From positions 1,096,664-1,160,663 of the forward strand of contig NC_015557.1 in the NCBI RefSeq assembly GCF_000213785.1: a stretch of 64,000 nt of DNA. The letters are read 5' to 3'. The notes beneath the pieces were generated by a model. That model was not told where the DNA came from, did not search any database, and saw only the letters and a program-made list of their open reading frames with translations. Of the stretch, positions 39,455-62,765 are shown in pieces. Numbering within the stretch: the stretch's first letter is position 1; each line of letters begins with the position of its first letter. Origin of the DNA: Hydrogenobaculum sp. 3684 (GTDB lineage Bacteria > Aquificota > Aquificia > Aquificales > Aquificaceae). The translations under genes were made by a program, and so were the position numbers.

Positions 39455-40519
39455 ATGATAAAAAGACGTAAAACTAGAGAAATTACGTTAGGTACTCTAA
39501 AAATAGGGGGAAATAATCCCATCGTAGTCCAGTCCATGACATCTACGAAAACCCACGATATAGAAGCTACCATCTCTCAAATAGATAGGCTTATAACAGC
39601 AGGGTGTGAAGCCATAAGAGTAGCGGTGCCAGCTAAAGAAGATGCCGAGGCTCTCAAAGAGATAATAAAATACTCTAAAGTGCCTATAATAGCAGATATT
39701 CATTTTGTGCCTAACATGGCATTTTTATCTATGGAAGCTGGAGCTCACGGCATCAGAATAAACCCAGGCAATATAAACAAAAAAGAGATAGTAAGAGATA
39801 TAGTCCTAGAGGCAAAAAGAAGAAATATTTGCGTAAGACTTGGAGTTAACTCTGGTTCTTTAGAAAAACATCTTTTGGAAAAATATGGGTATCCAAGCGC
39901 TGAAGCTCTTGCAGAAAGCGCTCTTAACTGGTCAGAATTTTTTGAGTCTTTAGGCTTTTACAACTTTAAAGTGTCTATAAAAGGTTCAGATGTAATTCAA
40001 AATGCTGTTGCCAACGAAATATTTGCAGAAAAAACCGATATACCTCTACATATAGGTATAACAGAGGCAGGAATGGGTACCCAAGGGATGGTAAAATCTT
40101 CCGTAGGGCTTGGTATATTGCTTTACAAAGGTATAGGAGATACCATCAGAGTATCCCTAACGGATGAACCAGAAAAAGAAGTAGAAGTAGCTTACGAAAT
40201 TTTAAAAAGTTTAGGGCTAAAGAAAAAGGGTATAGATATAGTCTCTTGTCCTACGTGCGGTAGAATAGAAGTAAACTTACCCGATGTTGTAAAACAGGTC
40301 CAAGAAGCTTTAAAAGACAAAGATTTATCTATAAAGGTTGCAATAATGGGCTGTGCGGTAAACGCCATAGGTGAGGCTTCCCACGCAGATGTGGGGTTAG
40401 CTTGTATGAAAGGGGGCGCTTTGTTGTTTAAAGATGGTAAAATCTTAAAAAAAGTTACCGAAGAAAATATGGTATCAGAGCTTTTAGAAACAATAGAAAA
40501 ATACTATCAGGAGGTATAA
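39455..40519 (+). CDS. ispG: 4-hydroxy-3-methylbut-2-enyl diphosphate synthase
   Basis: Iron-sulfur enzyme of the methylerythritol phosphate pathway to isoprenoids. The 354-residue protein shows QSMTSTKTHDIEATISQI, ADIHFVPNMAF, HGIRINPGNI, and the 4Fe-4S cysteines in SCPTCGRIE and MGCAVNAIGEASHADVG. It supplies the precursors used by the prenyl synthase at 52251 and UppS. It sits in the nrdB-hflX operon and carries an exact 10-mer at 39951 read as LGFY, a frame different from most copies. Confidence 0.96.
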   Translation: MIKRRKTREITLGTLKIGGNNPIVVQSMTSTKTHDIEATISQIDRLITAGCEAIRVAVPAKEDAEALKEIIKYSKVPIIADIHFVPNMAFLSMEAGAHGIRINPGNINKKEIVRDIVLEAKRRNICVRLGVNSGSLEKHLLEKYGYPSAEALAESALNWSEFFESLGFYNFKVSIKGSDVIQNAVANEIFAEKTDIPLHIGITEAGMGTQGMVKSSVGLGILLYKGIGDTIRVSLTDEPEKEVEVAYEILKSLGLKKKGIDIVSCPTCGRIEVNLPDVVKQVQEALKDKDLSIKVAIMGCAVNAIGEASHADVGLACMKGGALLFKDGKILKKVTEENMVSELLETIEKYYQEV

Positions 40520-40521
40520 AT

Positions 40522-40731
40522 ATGACAGAGAATTTACAGGACAAAATCTTGGAGGATGCCAAAGAAAAAGGCATCGAGGTAGTGATATACCTCACAAGGG
40601 GGAACAGAATAGTAGGTAAAGTGCTTGACCAGGACAAATACACTGTACTTTTGAAATCCGAAAGCGGTACAAACTTGATTTACAAGCATGCAATAAGCAC
40701 AGTAGTCATAGAAGAGGCGTCTGAAAATTGA
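40522..40731 (+). CDS. hfq: RNA chaperone Hfq (first copy)
   Basis: 69 residues, the normal length for a compact Hfq. The Sm1 part is VVIYLTRGNRIVGKVLDQDKY and Sm2 is YKHAISTVVI, with the YKH residues of the proximal RNA site. It forms hexameric rings that pair small RNAs with mRNAs. A good AGGAGG site precedes the ATG. The order ispG-hfq-hflX keeps the common hfq-hflX pairing, so this is likely the ancestral copy. A second copy lies at 60051. Confidence 0.96.
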   Translation: MTENLQDKILEDAKEKGIEVVIYLTRGNRIVGKVLDQDKYTVLLKSESGTNLIYKHAISTVVIEEASEN

Positions 40732-41840
40732 TAAAAGCTATATCTGTAGCCTTACAGTTAAGACATCAAACAAGAAATCAAGTTTTAGAATCATTAGAAG
40801 AGTTAGAAGGCTTAGTTGAGGCTATAGGTGGCAAAAGCGTAGGATACCTTGTAAAGAAAAGAGATTTTCCAGATGCTTCAACGCTTGTGGGAAGCTCATA
40901 CTTAAATCTCATAAAAGAGCTTGTGGAGGGCACTGGCTCAAATGCAGTGGTGTTCGATGAGTTTTTAAGCCCATCTCAGGTTAGAAATATAGAATCTTTT
41001 TTAGGAGTAAGCGTCCTTGACAGAGCAAACGTAGTTTTTGAGATTTTCATGGCAAGAGCTAAAACCCAACAAGCAAAACTTCAGATAGAACTAGCCAAAC
41101 TCACCTATGAACTACCAAGACTTTACGGCGTTGGTACAAAACTATCAAGGCAAAGCGGTAAGATGGGCACCAGAGGACCCGGTGAGCAACTCATAGAAAT
41201 AAAAAGAAGAGCTATACAAAAACGCATACACAAAATAAAAGAAGAAATAGAACAAATAAAAAAACATCACAAAGAGCAAAGAAAGAACAGGCTTAAAACA
41301 AATTACTTAAAAGTAGCTTTGGTAGGCTACACAAACGCCGGGAAATCATCGTTGATGAAAGCCCTTACCAAAAAAAACGTTTTTATAAGCGATATGCTTT
41401 TTGCCACTCTTGATACAAAGGTAGGTACAAGCTTTGTAGACGGAGAAAAAATATTTATAACAGATACCGTAGGCTTTATAGATAGATTACCACCAGAGTT
41501 GGTAGAGTCTTTCAAAACCACTTTAGAAGAGGTAACGCTTGCAGATTTGCTTGTTTTTGTAGTAGATATATCAGACCATAGATGGTTAAAGAAAATAGAT
41601 GTAGTAAACAAAATTTTGGAAGATATAGGCGTTAAAGATAAACCTATTTTGTACGTATTTAATAAAATCGATAAGTTGGTAAGCTCCAAAGAAGATATCC
41701 TTGGTTTTGAAAAAGAGTTTTTCTTTGAAAAACCTTACGTTTTGGTATCCAGCGAAAAAGATTGGAACATAGACGTCTTATTGGAGCGTATCAAATCATA
41801 CTACAAAGCTCATTTTGACTTAGGTTATATATATGCATAA
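40728..41840 (+). CDS. hflX: GTPase HflX
   Basis: Ribosome-associated GTPase that rescues stalled ribosomes, for instance after heat. The 370-residue protein has the N-terminal HflX domain (LVGSSYLNLIKELV, VVFDEFLSPSQVRNIE, PRLYGVGTKLSRQSGKMGTRGPGE) and the G domain: GYTNAGKSSLMKAL (P-loop), DTVGFIDRLP (G3) and NKID (G4). It starts at TTG overlapping the hfq stop (TTGA), which gives translational coupling. Its end overlaps the next gene by 8 bases. Confidence 0.95.
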   Translation: MIKAISVALQLRHQTRNQVLESLEELEGLVEAIGGKSVGYLVKKRDFPDASTLVGSSYLNLIKELVEGTGSNAVVFDEFLSPSQVRNIESFLGVSVLDRANVVFEIFMARAKTQQAKLQIELAKLTYELPRLYGVGTKLSRQSGKMGTRGPGEQLIEIKRRAIQKRIHKIKEEIEQIKKHHKEQRKNRLKTNYLKVALVGYTNAGKSSLMKALTKKNVFISDMLFATLDTKVGTSFVDGEKIFITDTVGFIDRLPPELVESFKTTLEEVTLADLLVFVVDISDHRWLKKIDVVNKILEDIGVKDKPILYVFNKIDKLVSSKEDILGFEKEFFFEKPYVLVSSEKDWNIDVLLERIKSYYKAHFDLGYIYA

Positions 41841-58638: not shown

Positions 58639-59423
58639 AGATAGGTGGCTTCAGAAAGCTTTTTAGCTTCTTCTTTTAACCCTTCCAAGCCTCTTTGTTT
58701 TAGGCTTTTAACAAAATGACTACCCACTACCACACCATCCACATAAGACTTTAAACTATCTATATGCTCCTTGCTTGATATACCAAAACCAAGAACTATG
58801 GGTTTATGACAATGTTTTCTATAGTTAGTGGTATATTCTTTTATACTTTCTATGGGTAGTTTGTCTCTTGCACCGGTAATACCAGTAATAGATACCATAT
58901 AAACAAAATCTGATGACATCTCACAAACACTTTGGACCCTGTTGTTTTTAAAAGAAGTTGGAGCCAAAAGCATCACAAGGCTAAGAGATCTTTGCTCTAA
59001 GGCATCTTTTACACCTTGAGCTTCTTCTGCTGGTAAATCTGGTATTATAAAACCATCTATTCCAGACTCTTTCGCTTCTTCAAAAAACCTATCAAGCCCT
59101 ATCTTAAAAATAGGGTTAAAATACGTCATAAGCAAAAAGGGTTTGTCTTTGTGCTTTGTTTTTAGGCTTTTAGAAAGATCAAATATATCTTTATGGGTGA
59201 TGCCGTTTTGAAGGGCTACCGTGTGAGCCTCTTGAATAGTGGGTCCATCTGCTACAGGATCTGAAAAAGGAAAACCTATCTCTATCATATCAGAGCCTTG
59301 CTCTAAGAGTATATCAAAAGCTTTGTAAGAAGTTTCCAAATCTGGGTATCCAGCCACCATGTAAGAAAGCAATGCTATTTTATTTTTTTGTTTTAAAAGC
59401 CCAAAAACCTCTGATATGTTCAT
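58635..59423 (-). CDS. trpA: tryptophan synthase alpha subunit
   Basis: Cleaves indole-3-glycerol phosphate to indole for the beta subunit. The 262-residue barrel shows MIEIGFPFSDPVADGPTIQEA (catalytic Glu and Asp), GFIIPDLPAEEA, YMVSITGITGARD and GVVVGSHFVK. It overlaps frr by 4 bases. trpB is not in the window; trpC is at 14379. Two exact 10-mers lie inside it (58701 and 59163), both read as KSLK. Confidence 0.96.
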   Translation of the reverse strand: MNISEVFGLLKQKNKIALLSYMVAGYPDLETSYKAFDILLEQGSDMIEIGFPFSDPVADGPTIQEAHTVALQNGITHKDIFDLSKSLKTKHKDKPFLLMTYFNPIFKIGLDRFFEEAKESGIDGFIIPDLPAEEAQGVKDALEQRSLSLVMLLAPTSFKNNRVQSVCEMSSDFVYMVSITGITGARDKLPIESIKEYTTNYRKHCHKPIVLGFGISSKEHIDSLKSYVDGVVVGSHFVKSLKQRGLEGLKEEAKKLSEATYL

Positions 59424-59968
59424 TTTAACTCCGTAATCTCTTTCTCCTTTGAAGAAGATAGGTTTGATATCTCATCTATATAATGGTCTGTGATTTTCTG
59501 AAGCTTATCGAGGGCCCTTTTTATCTCATCTTCAGATATACCTTCTAAAGACTCTATCATCTCTTTTGCATCTCTTCTTATGTTTCTTATAGCCACTTTT
59601 GCTTCTTCAGTGGTTTTGTGTAAAAGCTTCACAAGTTCTTTACGTCTTTCTTGAGTAAGGGGTGGAAGTGTAATGCGTAGGGTATTTCCTTGTCTTGCCG
59701 GGTTTAAAGAAAGCTGTTCCATTATAGCCTTTTCGATAGGTGATATGGCGTTTTGGTCCCACACTTGAATGAGTATCTGGTTTGGCTCTGGTACGCTTAC
59801 ATTACCCACTTGTTTAATAGGCACTCTAGAGCCGTAATACTCTATCTTGATGTCCTCCACCAGCGATGTAGAAGCTCTACCTGTCCTAAAGCCTGCCAAC
59901 TCGCTCTTAAAATGGTTTATACTCTTTTTCATGCTCTCTTCAGCTTCTTTCAAGATATCCTCTATCAT
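59420..59968 (-). CDS. frr: ribosome recycling factor
   Basis: With EF-G splits the post-termination ribosome. The 182-residue protein, normal for RRF, has LAGFRTGRASTSLVEDIKIEYYG, VPEPNQILIQVWDQ, GNTLRITLPPLTQERRKELVKLL and IRRDAKEMIESLEG. Its start is 7 bases after a TATAAT box. It leads a run through trpA and the two-component pair. Confidence 0.97.
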   Translation of the reverse strand: MIEDILKEAEESMKKSINHFKSELAGFRTGRASTSLVEDIKIEYYGSRVPIKQVGNVSVPEPNQILIQVWDQNAISPIEKAIMEQLSLNPARQGNTLRITLPPLTQERRKELVKLLHKTTEEAKVAIRNIRRDAKEMIESLEGISEDEIKRALDKLQKITDHYIDEISNLSSSKEKEITELK

Positions 59969-60011: not shown

Positions 60012-60020
60012 TGATATAAT
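60012..60020 (+). promoter_or_regulatory. extended -10 promoter of the second hfq
   Basis: TGATATAAT, with about 30 bases to the start codon. This gene has a real leader and a ribosome-binding site, unlike many neighbours. Confidence 0.5.
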
Positions 60021-60050
60021 AATAAATTATTAACTTTGAGAGGTAAAGCT

Positions 60051-60320
60051 ATGGGTAGCAAAAACGCAGCAAGATTACAAGATTTGATGCTAAACCAAAT
60101 AAGAAAGTCTAAGGTAAAAGTATCTATATATCTTCTTAACGGCGTAAGGTTGCAAGGAAAAGTTAGATCTTTTGATCTTTATACAATCCTCATAGAAGAT
60201 GGTAAACAACAAACGTTGGTTTACAAACACTCTATAACTACAATAATACCTGCTGAGAGAATAGACTTAAACTTCAACGAGATAGAGGAAGAGGAGGAAG
60301 AAGAAAACTACAACATATAA
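60051..60320 (+). CDS. second Hfq-family RNA chaperone
   Basis: 89 residues. It keeps the Sm fold: VSIYLLNGVRLQGKVRSFDLYTI (Sm1) and YKHSITTIIP (Sm2), with the same YKH residues as the hfq at 40522. It differs by a basic N-terminal extension (SKNAARLQDLMLNQIRKSK) and an acidic tail (EIEEEEEEEN). I chose the ATG giving MGSKNAA, 7 bases after an AGAGGT site; the longer TTG start is inside that site. It is probably a divergent paralogue with its own RNA partners, or forms mixed rings. Confidence 0.9.
   Translation: MGSKNAARLQDLMLNQIRKSKVKVSIYLLNGVRLQGKVRSFDLYTILIEDGKQQTLVYKHSITTIIPAERIDLNFNEIEEEEEEENYNI

Positions 60321-60359: not shown

Positions 60360-62765
<2,406 letters not shown>

Follow-up and report, generated by a model that had tools for sequence, protein, structure and literature searches.

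Two Hfq Genes in Hydrogenobaculum: an Ordinary Hfq and a Divergent Rim-less Hfq That May Divide Their Tasks

The stretch of the genome of the heat-loving bacterium Hydrogenobaculum sp. 3684 analyzed here (the window; 64,000 nucleotides) contains two genes for Hfq-like proteins. A sequence-only reading of the window had taken the 69-residue protein encoded beside hflX as the canonical Hfq and the 89-residue protein as an unusual second copy, which raises the question of which copy represents the usual Hfq in this group and what the other might contribute. The two open reading frames, here called hfqA (89 residues) and hfqB (69 residues), are listed with their surroundings in Table 1. As claimed, both are Hfq genes and both proteins keep the YKH site. 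HfqA and HfqB score 96.9 and 73.2 bits against PF17209 (cut-off 27) and 95 and 72.1 bits against TIGR02383 (cut-off 61.7), while both miss the 95-bit equivalog cut-off of NF001602/PRK00395.1, HfqA by only 1.1 bits (93.9) and HfqB with a score of 59.1. No further PF17209 match at E<=10 is present in the 1,552,775-bp genome, which is a single contig. The two proteins, with 24/61 residues identical (39%), are encoded by separate genes 19 kb apart. The best PDB match of HfqA is the Aquifex aeolicus Hfq 5szd (2.6e-30; 48/70 identical, 69%), while that of HfqB is Staphylococcus aureus Hfq (5.3e-12), which also tops its Foldseek fold search. The AF2 model of HfqB (pLDDT 90.2) retrieves Hfq chains at the top of the Foldseek list, and thus an Sm fold, an N-terminal helix followed by five strands, is predicted for HfqB from the model and for HfqA from its orthology to 5szd. 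Judged by sequence, the ordinary copy is HfqA and the odd one is HfqB, so the two labels have to be exchanged. The mix-up is understandable, because hfqB does occupy the miaA-hfq-hflX type of site.

Table 1. Features discussed in the text, in window positions; the fusion gene pairs are given in the positions of their own loci.
Feature	Position	Strand	Evidence or remark
ispG (gcpE), upstream operon neighbor of hfqB	39455..40519	+	PF04551 1.1e-137; stop codon 2 bp ahead of hfqB
hfqB, 69 aa, divergent, rim-less, nearly tail-less Hfq	40522..40731	+	PF17209, residue table, clade, AF2 Sm fold
HfqB degenerate rim EDAKEKG (E. coli positions 13-19)	40552..40572	+	charge -1
hflX-type GTPase, TTG start, 4 bp overlap with hfqB stop	40728..41840	+	PF13167, PF16360, PF01926
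frr, divergent neighbor upstream of hfqA	59420..59968	-	PF01765 4.5e-60
hfqA leader: extended -10 TGATATAAT (60012-60020), RBS GAGAGGT (60038-60044)	60012..60044	+	kept in 5/5 genus genomes
hfqA, 89 aa, ordinary Hfq, A. aeolicus Hfq orthologue	60051..60320	+	PF17209, TIGR02383, PDB match 5szd
HfqA lateral rim NQIRKSK (E. coli positions 13-19)	60093..60113	+	alignment, charge +3
HfqA acidic C-terminal tail, 22 aa, net charge -9	60252..60317	+	charge count
uppS, 39 bp downstream of hfqA, same strand	60360..61079	+	PF01255 1.8e-78
Fusion pair, family f5, L118	4054-5130	-	
Fusion pair, family f5, L119-L124			
Fusion pair, family f4, L326	1232-2169	-	
Fusion pair, family f4, L327	706-1662	+	

The difference between the two proteins is most evident in a residue comparison, in E. 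coli numbering, of 28 HfqA from three Aquificota families (f1 to f3, the window belonging to f1) and 35 HfqB. The proximal pocket is common to both, with Q8, K56, and H57 in 28/28 HfqA and 35/35 HfqB and with Y or F at position 42 in 27/28 and 35/35, respectively. HfqA carries a basic lateral rim (N13, R16, and K17 each in 28/28; K/R19 and F39 each in 26/28), whereas HfqB does not: N13 and F39 are each found in 4/35 and R16 in 5/35 (27 have K16), position 17 is E in 17 and K/R in 10, and position 19 is G in 25 and K/R in none of the 35. On the distal face, HfqA has N28 (27/28) together with Q33 (17/28) or E33 (11/28), the latter being the form found in family f2, while HfqB has R28, N/T30, and R31 in all 35 sequences and T/V33 in 33, with Q33 in none. 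Median rim charge is +3 in HfqA (2 to 4) and 0 in HfqB (-3 to 2), the groups touching at +2, and median core charge is +6 and -1. The median HfqA tail has 17 residues and a charge of -5, versus 2 residues and a charge of 0 in HfqB, where tails of 1-6 residues (charge -3 to +1) do not amount to an acidic C-terminal tail; the most acidic one sampled is the window's own (EEASEN, -3).

These comparisons also bear on the two additions that had been attributed to the 89-residue protein. A basic N-terminal helix is indeed present, but it corresponds to helix 1 as seen in ordinary Hfqs, rim patch included, R16 and K17 being invariant among the sampled orthologues. Likewise, the C-terminal run of seven glutamate codons exists (60285-60305), but an acidic tail is usual among HfqA and only the longer run is a trait of the genus. 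The run is a GAA/GAG repeat of differing length in the five genus genomes, and its length is probably free of tight constraint.

N13, R16, K/R17, and F39 are kept by 127/127 distinct comparison Hfqs, a count that excludes L256, L257, and six Aquificota loci. The figure overstates universality, since these Hfqs were picked for their resemblance to HfqB or for a high Pfam score. K/R at position 28 occurs in 0/150 aligned rows of a sample weighted to conserved Hfqs. S. aureus Hfq has no such rim. Nor does one of two Hfqs in the Spirochaetia genome G139 (L256): its rim is degenerate, with no arginine patch and with H39, and it accompanies an ordinary Hfq, perhaps as a parallel case outside Aquificota.

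To what extent both genes are shared by relatives was examined with a PF17209 profile search (E<=0.01) of 136 Aquificota genomes, 131 of which have a match. Of the 88 genomes with completeness of 90% or more and contamination of 5% or less, 85 give at least two matches, while a tally by eye from the match table leaves two with one (G110 and G111) and one with none (G113). In families f1-f3, HfqB (a strong match, 94 bits or more) is found in 104/112 genomes, HfqA in 102/112, and both in 97/112. HfqB is absent from G017, G019, G047, G049, G066, G069, G074, and G111, and HfqA from G011, G015, G017, G019, G034, G044, G049, G059, G091, and G110; 12 of these 15 genomes fail the 90/5 quality cut, and G074, G110, and G111 pass it. 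No strong HfqB match was obtained in the 24 genomes of families f4 and f5. The conservation across Aquificales that the sequence-only reading had proposed to check is thus seen, and absence of the second copy from close relatives, which would have spoken against that reading, is not, as both genes are present in 5/5 genomes of the genus. It was also right that two Hfq genes are uncommon: in evenly drawn samples, two matches are found in 10/199 Pseudomonadota genomes (143 with a match) and 3/199 Bacillota genomes (158 with a match), and in at least 6 of the 10 Pseudomonadota cases both domains share one reading frame. Over the residues that were compared, the HfqA of genome G001 is identical to the crystallized A. 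aeolicus protein, and this genome also has hfqB (G001:C1:1344078-1344278). One f1 genome (G042) contains a third Hfq-like open reading frame of 85 aa (L330 1235-1492, minus strand), at 27.1 bits barely above the Pfam cut-off.

In the two families with no strong HfqB match, tandem genes encode a pair of ~145-180-aa proteins in which a winged-helix-like region at the N-terminus is joined to an Sm/Hfq-like domain at the C-terminus. The pair occurs in f5 (presumably Desulfurobacteriaceae; first gene in 21/22 and second in 20/22 genomes) and in f4 (2/2). The f5 pair has accC just upstream in 7/7 sampled genomes, the order efp-accB-accC being confirmed in L118, and the f4 pair has rpe upstream. The winged-helix matches lie below Pfam cut-offs, and in f4 the Sm match is very weak (E 0.009-0.025). 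In f5, the second protein has a strongly basic Sm domain, with a core of about +9. The PF17209 search found no canonical Hfq in f4, and among the matches listed in an open-access literature search there was no such winged-helix/Sm fusion.

Both hfqA and hfqB are under strong purifying selection within the genus, with dN/dS values of 0.010-0.032 (7/10 pairs of the five genus genomes) and 0.020-0.119 (6/10 pairs), respectively; in the remaining pairs dS is saturated. In a tree of 134 rows, all 35 HfqB sequences fall into a single clade (support 93/99, not starred), and HfqA of f1-f3 make up another (98/95, starred) that takes in 5szd. Profiles built per group separate HfqA from HfqB without overlap, a gap that is somewhat flattered as the profiles scored their own source sequences. 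On these sequence grounds, HfqB is one orthologous group. The deep tree rests on 66 columns and does not settle how HfqA and HfqB branch relative to the f5 Hfq and the fusions. The difference lnL(free) minus lnL(held) is +5.46 with HfqA and HfqB held together, +2.62 for HfqA with the f5 Hfq, +11.27 for HfqA with the fusions, +5.35 for all Aquificota, -11.20 for HfqB with the fusions, -6.70 for HfqB with the f5 Hfq, and +5.34 for HfqB with both. Since two of the held trees have the higher likelihood, the free search must have missed better trees. No test is significant (p-AU 0.357 to 0.682), no conclusion here depends on a deep branch, and a simple duplication giving rise to HfqA and HfqB is not rejected. 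Transfer of HfqB from Bacillota or Acidobacteriota, which supply most of its best outside relatives among the matches listed in one contig scan, was considered and set aside, as those relatives are ordinary Hfqs with intact rims.

The two genes also differ in their settings. The order is ispG-hfqB-hflX in the window and miaA-hfqB-hflX in a sister family, miaA being ahead of hfqB in 10/13 sampled f2 genomes. hflX is next after hfqB in 31/35 sampled genomes, the window included, although unevenly by family (f1 19/19, window included; f2 12/13; f3 0/3). Among sampled f5 genomes, miaA precedes the ordinary Hfq in 7/7 (631 bp apart in G127), and hflX comes next after this Hfq in only one (G125). 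There is no conserved leader of the hfqA type ahead of hfqB, which probably rides on the ispG operon. HflX is a ribosome-associated GTPase. Gene order, the sole basis for a probable tie between HfqB and HflX, is evidence for co-expression of the two genes at most.

For hfqA, the sequence-only reading had proposed a promoter of its own with a proper leader, and this agrees with the extended -10 (TATAAT at 60015-60020) and ribosome-binding site kept throughout the genus. The stretch from TTTGnTATAAT to the ATG is kept in 5/5 genomes, although G031 and G033 differ further upstream, which supports a separate promoter for hfqA; from the -10 to the ribosome-binding site, the most divergent sequence is that of G030. 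A sigma-70 -35/-10 scan, which also requires a -35, was silent at this site. An ADP-ribosylglycohydrolase gene precedes hfqA on the same strand within 127 bp in 19/28 sampled f1-f3 genomes, but in 0/3 Hydrogenobaculum genomes, where uppS lies ~40 bp downstream. Beyond uppS, a tRNA gene (61090-61162) overlaps the program-called TTG start (61105) of the enolase open reading frame, and therefore the true enolase start should be further in.

What might the two proteins do? Our main reading, to which we assign a probability of roughly 0.55, is that they form two Hfq rings with split tasks, HfqA acting as a matchmaker and HfqB, coupled to hflX, as an RNA binder that does not anneal. In line with the earlier suggestion that a pair of Hfqs may divide RNA partners, a split of tasks seems likely from the sequences. 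HfqA, as a presumed hexamer, would take U-rich RNA ends at the proximal pore and A-rich mRNA at the distal face, and the strands would pair on the basic rim as in sRNA-mRNA matchmaking, while its acidic tail would compete for the rim, helping release of the product as a brake. In extracts from the review PMC10628458, annealing speed is tied to the number of rim arginines, and proximal and distal contacts are described. According to the portions of PMC5606850 available to us, acidic C-terminal residues are found in most of the Hfq clusters that have a basic rim patch, and the C-terminal tip of E. coli Hfq displaces RNA from the rim. HfqB, with its proximal pore kept, should bind U-rich RNA but, having neither rim nor tail, should not speed annealing; its remodeled distal face (R28 and R31 invariant, Q33 lost) should choose other RNAs, and its coupling to hflX points to a probable part in ribosome rescue or in protecting RNA. 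Because HfqA has both a basic rim and an acidic tail and HfqB has neither, a self-braked matchmaker and a non-annealing binder are the roles to be expected, and a split of tasks is further favored because two separable groups are kept together in most f1-f3 genomes under strong purifying selection. Several observations weaken this reading. HfqB is away from hflX in all sampled f3 genomes, which counts against a role with HflX; it mostly keeps a basic residue at position 16, so that a weak rim may remain; the contrast of tail and rim is blurred by the tail of the window's own HfqB and by the overlap of rim charges; and HfqA of f2 has E33 in place of Q33.

Other explanations of the pair have to be weighed against the same evidence. 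HfqA and HfqB could enter hetero-hexamers in which HfqB dilutes the rim and tail and thereby tunes or damps HfqA. The shared Sm core and YKH site and the agreement of the predicted HfqB fold with that of the crystallized HfqA orthologue are compatible with this, and extracts from PMC5348863 describe a divergent Bacillus anthracis Hfq that is a monomer and has a dominant-negative effect on E. coli Hfq activity. However, the proteins are only 39% identical and are encoded in separate operons with different expression signals, which would leave their ratio unfixed, and we regard mixed rings as unlikely. Still less likely is redundancy, in which HfqB would be a spare or a copy in decay and have no task of its own; it has lost residues that are universal among the comparison Hfqs sampled, but its persistence as one group in 104/112 genomes, the invariance of R28, R31, K56, and H57, and its low dN/dS are not what decay would leave. 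As for the 69-residue protein being canonical and the 89-residue protein a specialized copy with a novel tail and helix, the 69-residue gene does sit at the miaA-hfq-hflX type of site, but Pfam, NCBIfam, the PDB search, and the tree all place the 89-residue protein among ordinary Hfqs, and its helix, rim, and acidic tail are common to its orthologues, making this very improbable.

Returning to the split of tasks, a plausible history is that the resident Hfq at the miaA-hfq-hflX site lost its rim and tail in f1-f3, while HfqA, gained by duplication or transfer, kept the ordinary role. This is favored because HfqB and the f5 Hfq share K/R28 (35/35 and 7/7) and a miaA-side position and because likelihood rises when the two are held together, although it is weakened by the lack of a significant tree test. 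A wider and more doubtful version, which we offer tentatively, is a two-ring Aquificota system in which HfqA is the matchmaker and a non-annealing HfqB took over the miaA-hfq-hflX site, reads other RNAs via its arginine-bearing distal face, and is tied to HflX ribosome rescue at high temperature, the second role in f4 and f5 having perhaps passed to the tandem winged-helix/Sm fusions.

In the open-access literature, we found no paper on Hfq in Hydrogenobaculum, on Hfq in Aquificae with two copies, or on Hfq, Aquificales, and noncoding RNA together; the main text of PMC4227106 does not contain the term Hfq. Among the papers searched, we likewise found no report of an hfqB beside the crystallized A. 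aeolicus Hfq, and it seems undescribed. For Hfq function, the A. aeolicus protein has been used as a deep-branching reference. If its partner is naturally rim-less and tail-less, these cells would offer a ready-made experiment, with two Hfqs per cell differing in the parts presumed to separate annealing from binding. The case also illustrates that an hflX neighborhood can mark the wrong Hfq copy as canonical. What is unusual, judging from the sequences, is a rim-less Hfq paralogue that is close to fixation across three families of one phylum.

Among known systems, the closest to HfqA is A. aeolicus Hfq (5szd, 5sze; PMC5379935), its orthologue, with the same rim, distal, and proximal residues and in one clade with it, although the tail is longer and more acidic here. 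Extracts of that paper describe hexamers that bind U- and A-rich RNA and a single Hfq open reading frame, with no second one mentioned there, yet the genome G001 has hfqB. More than one Hfq is also found in Burkholderia cenocepacia (Hfq and Hfq2), according to partial sources, and in B. anthracis (Hfq1-3), where Hfq3 has no arginine patch (IEEQ) according to extracts from PMC5348863; one member of the B. anthracis set is carried on a plasmid, whereas the Aquificota pair is nearly fixed in three families. The double-Hfq fusions of some Pseudomonadota (NCBIfam PRK14091 type) similarly provide two Hfq domains per genome, but these share one frame, while the genes here are far apart and of different types. 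S. aureus Hfq (1kq1, 1kq2, 3qsu) resembles HfqB most in sequence and fold and likewise has no rim arginines (rim ENFKANQ, charge 0). HfqB is unlike it, however, in having R28, N/T30, and R31 on its distal face and in coexisting with a rim-bearing Hfq.
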